From a bacterium (GTDB lineage Bacteria; UBA9089; CG2-30-40-21; SBAY01): DNA of 5,853 nt. The DNA lies in contig JBFLYA010000228.1 of the NCBI GenBank assembly GCA_040757115.1, positions 1-5,853 of the forward strand. The letters run 5' to 3'. The notes beneath the pieces are model-generated. The model saw nothing but the letters and a program-made list of their open reading frames with translations. It had not been told where the DNA came from and did not search any database. Position numbers and translations under genes: made by a program. Numbering within the stretch: the first letter of the stretch is position 1; each line of letters opens with the position of its first letter. Positions 2,436 to 5,853 of this stretch are shown here, one piece after another.

Positions 2436-3554
2436 ATGGGAGAAAATAAAGAGATATCTACAAGAAATTACAGTAGTCTGCTTGAAAGAATTGCTGAAAT
2501 TCTCACTCAGGCAAGGACTAAGGCATTTAGAGAAATAAACAGAGCCCAGGTTTTAGCTTACTGGGGAATTGGCAGAGAGATTGTGGAGTTTGAGCAGAAA
2601 GGCAAGGCACGGGCAGAGTATGGAGAGGAACTACTCAAAAAACTTTCGGCAGACATGACTGCCAAATTTGGAAGAGGGTTCTCAGAAAGGAACTTAAGGA
2701 ACATCAGAACTTTTTATCTCAATTTTCCAATTTGGCAGACACTGTCTGCCAAATCTTCTGAAAGACAAAAAACGCAGACACCGTCTGGAAAATCTATAAT
2801 TCGCCAGACACCGTCTGGAAAATTTGAACCAATGTTATCTTGGTCGCAGTATTGCGAACTATTGAAGGTAGAAGAGCCCCTTGCCCGTTCTTTTTACGAA
2901 CAAGAATCCATTCAAAACAACTGGTCTGTCCGAGAACTGAAAAGGCAGATCGGCTCAATGCTATTTGAACGACTGGCTTTAAGCAAAGATACCAAAGCAG
3001 TAATGAAAATAGCAGAGAAAGGACAGATAGTAGAGAAACCAGAAGATGCTATTAAAGATCCATACATTCTGGAGTTCCTTAATCTCAAAGAAGAGACATC
3101 TTATACTGAAAGTCAGTTAGAACAAGCCTTGATTGATAATCTTCAACACTTTTTATTAGAACTTGGTAAAGGGTTTGCTTTCGTCGCCCGTCAAAAAAGA
3201 ATTACCATTGCTAATCGTCATTATCACATAGATTTAGTTTTTTATAACAGACTGTTAAAGTGTTTGGTTCTGATAGATTTAAAAACAGATGAACTTGACC
3301 ACGCTGACATAGGTCAGATGAATTTTTATCTGAACTATATCAAAGATAATGAGAAAGTTGAAGGAGAGAATGACCCTGTAGGGCTTATCCTCTGTGCGAA
3401 GAAAGATGATATTTTTGCTAAATATGTCTTAGGTGGCTTGAGCAATAAGGTCTTTGCTTCAAAATACAAATTAGCATTGCCATCAGAAAAGGAGTTGAGA
3501 GAAAAACTGAAATCGCTGCCATTGTTGCAGGGTAAAAGTGAGAGGAAAGAGTAA
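2436..3554 (+). CDS. DUF1016/YhcG-family PD-(D/E)XK nuclease
   Basis: Predicted nuclease of unknown target, typical of accessory and defence-rich regions. Residues 14-100 match the DUF1016 N-terminal domain (AYWGIGREIVEFEQ at 41-54, EYGEELLKKLSADM at 61-74, FGRGFSERNLRNI at 78-90). Residues about 134-345 match the C-terminal nuclease domain: LSWSQYCELL, then YTESQLEQALIDNL with a candidate Glu at 225 or 229, HIDLVFYNR with Asp266, LVLIDLK with Asp281 and Lys283, and DIGQMNFYLNY with Gln294. These make a complete-looking PD-(D/E)XK core. The 372 residues match the length of E. coli YhcG. Between the domains, residues 101-130 hold three QT(L/P)S(A/G)K repeats encoded by DNA palindromes. AGGAGG at 2410-2415 is too far (20 bases) from the ATG, leaving only a GGTGGGG near it; the N-terminus nevertheless fits the family. 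The next gene follows after two bases. Confidence 0.9.
   Translation: MGENKEISTRNYSSLLERIAEILTQARTKAFREINRAQVLAYWGIGREIVEFEQKGKARAEYGEELLKKLSADMTAKFGRGFSERNLRNIRTFYLNFPIWQTLSAKSSERQKTQTPSGKSIIRQTPSGKFEPMLSWSQYCELLKVEEPLARSFYEQESIQNNWSVRELKRQIGSMLFERLALSKDTKAVMKIAEKGQIVEKPEDAIKDPYILEFLNLKEETSYTESQLEQALIDNLQHFLLELGKGFAFVARQKRITIANRHYHIDLVFYNRLLKCLVLIDLKTDELDHADIGQMNFYLNYIKDNEKVEGENDPVGLILCAKKDDIFAKYVLGGLSNKVFASKYKLALPSEKELREKLKSLPLLQGKSERKE
2730..2823. repeat. In-frame palindrome cluster within the nuclease gene
   Basis: A perfect palindrome with 12-base arms (2730-2741 and 2743-2754, centre C2742) is followed by two shorter palindromes of the same core: CAGACACCGTCTG at 2775-2787 and at 2805-2817, the latter with six-base arms, CCAGAC/GTCTGG. 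All three share CAGACAC(T/C)GTCTG. Their offsets are 39 and 30 bases, exact multiples of three, so each is read as QT(L/P)S(A/G)K (residues 101-106, 114-119, 124-129). Both shorter copies continue as GGAAAAT. The ancestral copy is probably the first one, as QTLS at this place is, from memory, frequent in DUF1016 proteins. The others look like duplications. Confidence 0.9.
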
Positions 3555-3556
3555 TT

Positions 3557-4705
3557 ATGGAAGATAGAGATACTGCAAAAAACAAAGAACATTATCAAAT
3601 ATCTTTTCTACCTTGGGCTGGATTGAAAGGAGAGATAAAAATCGGACCTATTACATTTTGGTCATTTAACTTACATGCTAAAGATAAAATTCCAGATCAA
3701 GAAATGTTAAATCATCTGACTAAGTATTTTGGTTGCTATATTGATCATCAAGGAAGACCCGTTGATACAATAACAATTTGCTCTCATGGAAATATAGACT
3801 TTCGATGTCTTACAAATGATCAGTGTACCGATTTGCGCAGCGCAGTTGACATACTTATTTTTTGTACAATTGCACCACAAATAAAAAGGGCTGTATGTGC
3901 CAACAATAGGACTATAGGACCTCCCAGTGCAGAGGTTTTTCAGTTGGTAACACAAAATTTTAAACCGGGGAATGACCATATCGCTGTGCGTTCTGGTAGT
4001 CTCCTTAGCGCTGGTTGGAAAATAGGAGAGATCAGTTTTCCAGAACCTTGGTCTACAGGAGGTTCTTTTGGAACTCCTGACACTGAACTCATTGATGGGT
4101 TTAACAAAGTATTTGCCCCTTTGTTTGCTCAAGATATGCGTGAACGGTTATTCAGAAGTTTAGAGTGGTTCCGATTGGCTCATGTGGAGAGTGATGAAGT
4201 ATCACTGTTATCTAAAGTTGTTATGATGGCAACAGCGTTTGAGATACTTCTTCAATTTCCCAAGGAAGGCAAGCGTAGACATTTCGTAAATTATATGGAA
4301 AATAATATCGCATCAGATAGTTTCAATAAGGACAATCGAATCACGGACAGAGGGAAAACTTTTTCGTTGAGCCTTGCAGGATGCTGGGCTTGGGATTTCT
4401 ACGAGTTAAGGAGTACCATCGTGCACGGTGATCACATTAACTCAGAACAACTTAAATATGAGACACGCGATAAAAATTGGCTTACACATCTCATCGTTGC
4501 TGATTTAGTCTTTTGGGAGTGTATTAAACGAGAATTGTTTAATCAAAAATGTATTGGTGACAATGTGCGAGAATGTGCAAAGGAATTTGATAAAGCCTTT
4601 CCCAATGAACCAGAAGGGACTTCTGAAGAGCCACTAGCAAGGTGGTTTTTGGGGTTTAGTGATATGCATAGTGCTCTTGGTTGGGAAAAGGAGAAAGTTA
4701 AATGA
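3557..4705 (+). CDS. Uncharacterised protein with a HEPN-like C-terminal domain
   Basis: I do not recognise the full-length family. The 382-residue protein has no signal peptide or clear membrane segment, so it is probably cytoplasmic. The N-terminal half (about 10-190) is a mixed strand-rich region of unknown fold. From about 195 the sequence becomes helical (RERLFRSLEWFRLAH, VVMMATAFEILLQF) and ends with YELRSTIVHGDH at 282-293, in which Arg285 and His290 form an R-x4-H motif. In HEPN-domain RNases and toxins, R-x4-6-H is the catalytic signature, and the preceding LR plus following HG are typical. The overall plan, an unknown sensor-like half and a C-terminal HEPN, recalls ApeA-like anti-phage proteins, but this is an analogy. 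Ten cysteines are present, without a clear zinc motif. AGAGGA at 3541-3546 precedes the ATG. It begins two bases after the nuclease gene and overlaps the DUF1156 remnant, so all three were probably one operon. Confidence 0.75.
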   Translation: MEDRDTAKNKEHYQISFLPWAGLKGEIKIGPITFWSFNLHAKDKIPDQEMLNHLTKYFGCYIDHQGRPVDTITICSHGNIDFRCLTNDQCTDLRSAVDILIFCTIAPQIKRAVCANNRTIGPPSAEVFQLVTQNFKPGNDHIAVRSGSLLSAGWKIGEISFPEPWSTGGSFGTPDTELIDGFNKVFAPLFAQDMRERLFRSLEWFRLAHVESDEVSLLSKVVMMATAFEILLQFPKEGKRRHFVNYMENNIASDSFNKDNRITDRGKTFSLSLAGCWAWDFYELRSTIVHGDHINSEQLKYETRDKNWLTHLIVADLVFWECIKRELFNQKCIGDNVRECAKEFDKAFPNEPEGTSEEPLARWFLGFSDMHSALGWEKEKVK

Positions 4706-4912
4706 GTTTATATTGCAAGCGCTTAATTGAAGTTGATTCGCCGATAAAGAAGATTTCAGAACATCCAAGGCGTGACCAGAATGTGAAGAAGGGGCATTTA
4801 CATTCTATGCATGTATGGGTGGGCAACCCGTCCTCTTGCCTCTTGTAGGGCAGTAATAATGGGTGCCTTATTACCGGACCCTGTAGATTCAAATTGCTCA
4901 GAAAATTTTCGA
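4702..4912 (+). pseudogene. DUF1156-type methyltransferase-like gene, frameshifted N-terminal remnant
   Basis: ATG 4702-4704 overlaps the stop of the HEPN-like gene as ATGA. The first frame encodes 48 residues (KRLIEVDSPIKKISEHPRRD, then GHLHSMHVW) and stops at 4846-4848. Skipping one base within the GGGTGGG run at 4817-4823 restores WATRPLASCRAVIMGALLPD and then PVDSNCSENFR, to about 4912. The joined sequence follows the N-terminus of DUF1156 proteins as I remember it (RLIEVxLPIxxIxxHxRRE, GHxSTLHxWWARRPLAxCRAV, PDP). Those proteins are large methyltransferase-like components of defence or restriction clusters, usually of about 900 residues or more, so nearly all of the gene is missing. After 4912 the frame reads on to TGA 4967-4969 without recognisable similarity, which places a deletion junction there. 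The remnant should be non-functional. Confidence 0.8.
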
Positions 4913-4958
4913 CCTGTGCGGTTAGAAATTATCAAGGGCAATGGGATAAGAAGTATGT

Positions 4959-5378
4959 GTGAAAGCTGACAAATCTAACCATTACGCATACAATAAGGAA
5001 TTTCAACCATTCGCAAATAAGCTACGCAAAGAAATGACTAAAGCTTAAGGCATGTTTATGGAAGTTTGTTTTAAAAGCAAGACAAATGAAGGGTTATCAC
5101 TTCAGGAGGCAACGACCTGTATTGAATTATATCGTGGATTTTATGTGTAAAGAATTAAAGTTAGTCATTGAAGTAGATGGATTGACTCATCACAATGAGA
5201 AGACAGTGGAGAAGGATAAGAGGTAGGAGAAGGATTTAATAGAAGCAGGATTTATAGAGTATTGAGATTTGCGGATGATGAGGTATTAAATCACATAGAA
5301 GATGTGACAAGAAATATTGAAATGGTGATTGAAGAGGTTTCCACCCCCTTAATCCCCCGCCAGCGGGGGAGATTTTAG
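4959..5378 (+). pseudogene. DUF559-family endonuclease-like gene, broken by two frameshifts and a stop
   Basis: Joining three frames gives a nearly complete DUF559 protein, a small PD-(D/E)XK-type family related to Vsr-like nucleases, usually about 120 residues. Part 1, from a GTG at 4959, reads SNHYAYNKEFQPFANKLRKE and MTKA, then stops at 5046-5048. Part 2, in another frame from about 5050, reads ACLWKFVLKARQMKGYHFRR, then QRPVLNYIVDFMCKELK and LVIEVDGLTHHNEKTVEKDK, and meets TAG 5224-5226 where Arg, Gln or Lys is expected. It continues EKDLIEAGF to about 5256. Part 3, after two surplus bases, reads VLRFADDEVLNHIEDVTRNI and EMVIEE, then STPLIPRQRGRF encoded by a GC-rich repeat, ending at TAG 5376-5378. 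The family core (YIVDF, VIEVDG) is intact, so decay looks recent. The DUF1156 remnant ends just upstream. Confidence 0.85.
5353..5376 (+). terminator. GC-rich hairpin (repeat and possible terminator)
   Basis: TCCCCCGC at 5353-5360 pairs perfectly with GCGGGGGA at 5363-5370 around a CA loop, followed by GATTTT. In an AT-rich window this CCCCCTTAATCCCCCGC/GCGGGGG block is conspicuous and resembles short palindromic repeats dispersed in some environmental genomes. It also supplies the last codons of the DUF559 pseudogene. The T-tract is short, so termination is plausible but not certain. A further G-run, GTGGGGGG at 5389-5396, follows and may belong to the same element. Confidence 0.55.
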
Positions 5379-5463: not shown

Positions 5464-5679
5464 ATGAAACTTGAAAAAAGAAATATTGAAGTTTTAGATG
5501 AATTAATGGTTGAAGTGTTAAGAAAAAAAACTCCCCAACAAAGACTAATTATTGCATTTAATTTATGGGATTCTGCAAAGAAACAATTAACAAACTATCT
5601 ATCTTCTTTGCATCCCGACTGGGATAAGGAAAAAGTTCAACAGGAAGTAGTCAGGAGATTATCCTATGGAACAATATGA
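5464..5679 (+). CDS. Small uncharacterised protein, partner of a nucleotidyltransferase-like gene
   Basis: The 71-residue product is highly charged and probably all-helical. It has an N-terminal acidic/basic segment, then TPQQRLIIAFNLWDSAKKQL (23-42), then LHPDWDKEKVQQEVVRRLSY (49-68). From memory, small proteins with this plan, (P/T)xQ(R/K)L followed by HPxWxxxxxxxE(v/l)xRRLxxG, often precede a minimal-type nucleotidyltransferase gene, but I know no established function. Its own reading frame is intact. GAGGGA at 5455-5460 serves the ATG, with short spacing. Its end overlaps the start of the next ORF by 14 bases, and AGGAG at 5653-5657 within its 3' end is the ribosome site of that ORF. A role in a toxin-antitoxin-like pair is an inference from this arrangement. 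With the partner truncated, it may be an orphan. Confidence 0.7.
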   Translation: MKLEKRNIEVLDELMVEVLRKKTPQQRLIIAFNLWDSAKKQLTNYLSSLHPDWDKEKVQQEVVRRLSYGTI

Positions 5680-5734
5680 CTTGCTTAAACATCTGGTTCA
5701 GAGTTTTGAATCACTTGGGATTCAATATCTGTAA
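5666..5734 (+). pseudogene. Truncated nucleotidyltransferase-like gene (22 codons)
   Basis: ATG 5666 is preceded by AGGAG at 5653-5657 with good spacing and overlaps the upstream 71-residue gene. It encodes MEQYDLLKHLVQSFESLGIQ followed by YL and stops at TAA 5732-5734. The sequence matches, from memory, the N-terminal helix of small nucleotidyltransferases of the pattern LLKHxVExxExLxIPY, after which a TGSxAxxxYG and then a DID catalytic motif would follow. None of these is present downstream in any frame that I can see, so the gene was cut after the first strand. The call rests on 22 residues and on the typical pairing with the upstream gene. Confidence 0.55.
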
Positions 5735-5853
5735 CCGTTCAGGCTATATATCAAAAGTGTAAGAAAGGGGATAAGGAGATAAGAGTGATATGGAGATAAG
5801 ATAATAGAAATAGATTGAAATTTATAGAAATAGGTAGAAATTGATTGTGGAAA
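5735..5853. repeat. Purine-rich low-complexity tail with short direct repeats
   Basis: No gene is seen here. The + strand is rich in A and G. GATAAG/GATAAGG-type words recur between 5770 and 5800. ATAGAAATAG occurs at 5804-5813 and, 20 bases later, at 5824-5833, with GATTGAAAT and GTAGAAATTGATTG variants around them. The tract starts directly after the truncated nucleotidyltransferase-like ORF and may extend beyond the window. Confidence 0.6.

Follow-up and report, generated by a model that had tools for sequence, protein, structure and literature searches.

Two intact genes, one for a DUF1016 nuclease and the other for a protein of 382 residues outside the named families, stand directly in front of the start of a DUF1156 DNA methylase gene in a bacterial genome, and the arrangement raises the question of whether the three once formed a single defence system or came together in some other way. 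The sequence in question, here called the window, is the complete 5.85-kb contig C228 (5,853 nucleotides) of a 4.3-Mb assembly of 462 contigs. A sequence-only reading of it had described the set as a candidate defence operon, and we followed up that proposal by computational analysis of each gene, of the relatives of the 382-residue protein and of their genomic surroundings.

The coupled genes and the methylase remnant

The three genes lie on the + strand, preceded by a gene for an HtrA-type protease and then by folB-folK. The DUF1016 gene (2436..3554) ends with a TAA stop codon at 3552-3554, the ATG of the next gene (3557..4705) follows at 3557 after a gap of two bases, and an ATGA overlap at 4702-4705 joins the end of that open reading frame to the DUF1156 start at 4702, which is preceded by an AGGAG ribosome site. 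The tight coupling described in the sequence-only reading is thus reproduced exactly, down to the coordinates. Beyond the methylase remnant, the contig carries a DUF559 (Vsr-like endonuclease) pseudogene decayed by stops and frameshifts (4981..5340, + strand; Pfam PF04480 at 2e-25 in a read-through with the stops masked). At 5464-5730 there is an Rv0078B-type antitoxin gene (PF18993) followed by an apparently broken partner gene. No Rfam RNA, tRNA gene or RNA ligase gene is present in the window.

The first gene encodes a YhcG-like protein of 372 residues that matches DUF1016_N at 1e-44 and YhcG_C at 6e-58 (PF17761 and PF06250), both well over the Pfam cut-off, as well as the PADLOC candidate family PDC-S02 at 4e-144, and its Asp266, Asp281 and Lys283 make up a D...DxK core. 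Pfam domains, defence-candidate family and catalytic residues therefore agree with its initial assignment as a PD-(D/E)XK nuclease. Two further DUF1016 copies in the same genome, on contigs C20 and C86, close restriction or methylase operons. A palindromic CAGACAC(C/T)GTCTG element occurs three times within the gene, at 2730-2825, where it encodes part of the DUF1016 linker; shuffled sequence gives no match.

The third gene (4702..4933, + strand; PF06634 match) had been described as dead, and so it is: frameshifted, with about 78 of some 1,020 residues left. Tblastn reads it in two frames, 4702-4818 and then 4787-4933, as a genuine N-terminus that is 50–55% identical to DUF1156 methylases of Planktothrix. 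An assembly error was considered as the source of the frameshift and rejected. Homology ends at residue 78 of 1,021, and the remainder of the gene is absent from the 4.3-Mb assembly, so the gene is truncated regardless of the frameshift. The intact proteins most similar to the stub (52–56% identity) are encoded in plasmid loci with the order helicase-DUF1156-DUF499; these DUF499-centred loci, of the Hma or "BREX-related" kind, are restriction-like and carry VapBC, AAA ATPase or transposase genes as accessories between helicase, methylase and ATPase. Neither a helicase nor a DUF499 ATPase gene is found on C228, which ends at 5853, and the intact DUF1156 N6-methylase required for a DUF499/Hma system is represented in the window by the stub only. 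Another contig of the same genome, C309 (L027:1-3908), encodes in a row an ATPase fragment (no Pfam match; BrxC-like by eye only), a PglZ-like protein, an MNT protein, a HEPN protein and a DUF1156 methylase. The MNT-HEPN pair of C309, directly upstream of the DUF1156 gene, provides the second HEPN gene so placed.

The 382-residue protein and its predicted active site

The product of the middle gene has no significant match in Pfam, NCBIfam or PADLOC. Its relatives are encoded in a Chloracidobacterium genome (46% identity), in other genomes of the same phylum, on two Microvirga plasmids and on one phage contig; when the window protein alone was compared with phages and plasmids, only the Microvirga plasmids came up, and viral scans for relatives found one. 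An alignment of the nine members whose sequences extend over the C-terminal half, with pairwise identities of 13–59%, contains only six invariant residues, Pro164, Ala227, Trp277, Arg285, His290 and Leu327. The pattern RxxxxH occurs once in the protein, as RSTIVH from Arg285 to His290 (codons 4409..4426, + strand), and both of its ends are invariant in all nine covering sequences. By a simple-proportion estimate, both ends would fall among six invariant positions out of 382 by chance about 2 times in 10,000, so that the coincidence of a single motif with the invariant set is far beyond chance. An Rx4-6H motif is the defining feature of HEPN RNases (PMC3710099). The residue that follows the motif arginine, polar in HEPN proteins, is serine or asparagine in seven of the nine members and glycine in the other two; Glu229 is conserved in eight, but not in the Ex3[KR] context of the second acidic residue of HEPN domains.

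Predicted models of the whole protein and of its C-terminal half are of low confidence (pLDDT 42 and 51, the latter for the domain model); those of the C-terminal half are all-helical, the domain model places the motif at a helix end, and a structural search with these low-confidence models returned no significant match. HEPN structures (1jog, 4nqf) do stand among the first five entries of the Foldseek domain list, but at E >1, and the VIA-align list consists of helical bundles of the TetR-like type, with Z no higher than 5.4; neither was taken as evidence. The PDB sequence search with the protein gave phospholipase matches only, which we attribute to chance, and a PDB search with the family profile found nothing. 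The N-terminal 190 residues show no recognised fold or role. On the strength of its conserved residues, the protein is probably a HEPN-type RNase of a small unnamed family. The original proposal of a HEPN RNase-type protein stands as regards the conserved Rx4H motif, while the fold is not confirmed, both models being of low confidence.

Genomic surroundings of the relatives

The neighbourhoods of 12 relatives were tabulated, and restriction, toxin-antitoxin or DNA-methylase genes lie near seven of them. A BsuBI/PstI-type methylase-nuclease stands directly 5' of the relative in G156, HsdR and AbiEii occur nearby in G616, RES and AbiEii in G399, SIR2 in G403, and a cytosine methylase (by eye) in G192, where the relative itself appears truncated. 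On the phage contig (L009:4956-10004) the relative stands beside ParB-like and DNA-methylase genes (by eye). No restriction, toxin-antitoxin or methylase genes were found near the relative in the two Microvirga loci and G438. The anticipated link of the family to defence islands is supported by these surroundings. The recurrence of DUF1016 and intact DUF1156 genes, which a single three-gene system would predict, is not seen: tblastn across all loci, some of whose contigs end nearby, places DUF1016 beside none of the 12 relatives and DUF1156 within 10 kb of one. In that one, G427 (L043), which is also the seventh of the relatives near defence-type genes, an intact DUF1156 methylase and a SNF2 helicase are encoded on the opposite strand; 4.8 kb, including a transposase gene, separate the methylase gene from the relative. 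The tabulation does not support the claim that the three genes of the window constitute one recurring system.

Two of the 12 relatives are surrounded by genes of RNA repair, a pattern that was noticed post hoc. In G019, a Chloracidobacterium genome, 26 tRNA genes form an array (L010:7544-12561) that encloses the relative and, after it, an RNA ligase gene (PF09414). Since about 40 of the 67 tRNA matches in this genome lie outside the array, the latter is a spare set. Farther along the same locus (L010:16869-18709), an AAA/OLD-like ATPase gene and then a small DUF4276-like gene form, by eye, a possible two-gene defence pair. In the other genome (G295; L046:52-4925 and L024:7980-10136), the relative follows a Ro60/TROVE gene and a Y RNA of the YrlA-like kind (E 1.8e-9, under the Rfam gathering score) and stands just 5' of rtcB, at a distance of nine bases, with rtcR divergent; here the relative is split over contigs C78 and C70, and their join is deduced from the gene halves at the contig ends. 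HEPN RNases leave cyclic-phosphate ends. The RtcR operon of Salmonella is induced by tRNA fragments with such ends (PMC7790460), and spare tRNA operons of 26 genes have been described in Anabaena, where rtcB is likewise under the control of the repressor TrcR (PMC10272220). From the two settings together, tRNA emerges as the most likely substrate of the predicted RNase.

Possible origins of the locus and known systems

The reading that we prefer, and to which we assign about an even chance, sees in the predicted metal-independent HEPN RNase and the DUF1016 nuclease two accessory effectors that belonged to a DUF499/Hma locus now in decay. It draws on the invariant Rx4H pair and Trp277, the Hma loci of the stub's kin, the layout of C309, the DUF1016 copies on C20 and C86, and the defence and RNA-repair neighbours of the relatives. 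Both genes would have been placed just upstream of the adenine methylase of a BREX-related, restriction-like locus of this type, where infection or another stress would release the 382-residue effector, which would then most likely cut tRNA or another structured RNA and stop growth. The locus would subsequently have decayed, the methylase being reduced to a stub and the helicase and ATPase presumably lost, with the effectors left standing. Against it count the poor HEPN models, the absence of an ApeA profile match, the lack of DUF1016 beside any relative, the N-terminal 190 residues without recognised role and the limitation of the RNA-repair setting, itself spotted post hoc, to two of 12 relatives. 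As the 382-residue gene is intact though its supposed methylase partner is dead, it cannot depend strictly on that partner.

The alternatives differ in what they make of the same evidence. If the HEPN protein were an anticodon nuclease that damages tRNAs and whose usual partners are spare tRNAs, RNA ligase and RtcB, the methylase would be a neighbour by incidental clustering in a defence island; the gene inside the spare tRNA array with its ligase, and the one between the YrlA-like RNA and rtcB beneath rtcR, speak for such an arrangement, which we nevertheless consider rather unlikely here, as it concerns two of 12 relatives only, one of them split across two contigs, and the window contains neither ligase nor tRNA gene. 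The broader notion that the family comprises tRNA-cutting HEPN effectors of a new kind, which in some genomes travel with their own repair kit (spare tRNA array and ligase, or Y-RNA/RtcB operon) and so act as a damage-and-repair switch and not as one-way suicide, strikes us as similarly doubtful. It is also unlikely that two unrelated orphan genes, one for a mobile DUF1016 nuclease and the other a HEPN-like gene that stands alone, met by chance in a decaying island and have no joint function: the neighbours of the relatives do vary, and decay is evident nearby in the DUF1156 gene, the DUF559 pseudogene and the antitoxin pair, but the two-base gap, the ATGA overlap, the ribosome sites upstream and the integrity of both open reading frames amid this decay speak against a chance pairing. 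Quite improbable, finally, is a dedicated three-gene defence in which DUF1156 would mark self DNA, DUF1016 would cut unmarked DNA and the HEPN protein would serve as an abortive back-up. The tight coupling of the genes and the precedent of PrrC-PrrI (PMC3710099) favour it, but DUF1016 accompanies no relative, DUF1156 comes near just one, and the kin of the methylase are accompanied by DUF499 and a helicase and not by DUF1016.

The new element in these observations is an unnamed HEPN-type family for which a conserved active site and several genomic contexts are now described, and whose link to RNA repair is suggestive; the RNA-repair contexts predict both its target, tRNA, and its chemistry, the production of ends that RtcB could rejoin. 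On the preferred reading of accessory effectors, the window would exemplify the accumulation of accessory nucleases next to the methylase of Hma-type loci, and the decay of these loci around effectors that remain intact.

Several known systems resemble parts of this picture. Among them are the DUF499/Hma systems (HmaABC, BREX-related, BR), whose DUF1156 methylase is represented in the window by the N-terminal part encoded in the dead third gene. HEPN RNases occur fused to the DUF499 ATPase of these systems (PMC12839542), whereas the HEPN protein of the window is a separate gene product of another family, next to a methylase stub on a contig without helicase and DUF499. ApeA-type HEPN proteins (PF18739) share the Rx4H motif with the 382-residue protein and differ in the N-terminal half. 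One relative (L022) matches PF18739 weakly at the motif, at E 0.035 and under the cut-off, the window protein gives no match to it, and the best of 10 members scores 15.0 bits against a cut-off of 24.4; in hhalign, the family profile (A5) aligned with seven ApeA-like proteins at a probability of 0.1%, over just 20 columns at the motif. The family resembles the anticodon nucleases PrrC and RloC in its HEPN-type active site and in often lying near restriction-modification genes, although the 382-residue protein lacks their ABC-ATPase domain (no Pfam domain) and any sequence match to them. Links between HEPN proteins and restriction-modification genes are widespread in general, with PrrC as the model case (PMC3710099), and damage by PrrC is, in one account, countered by phage tRNA-repair enzymes (PMC2610378). 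The last comparison is with the rsr-yrlBA-rtcBA operon under RtcR: neither the name nor the layout of the Salmonella version, as described, includes a HEPN gene (PMC7790460), and the window has no repair genes, whereas the relative in G295 sits inside just such an operon.
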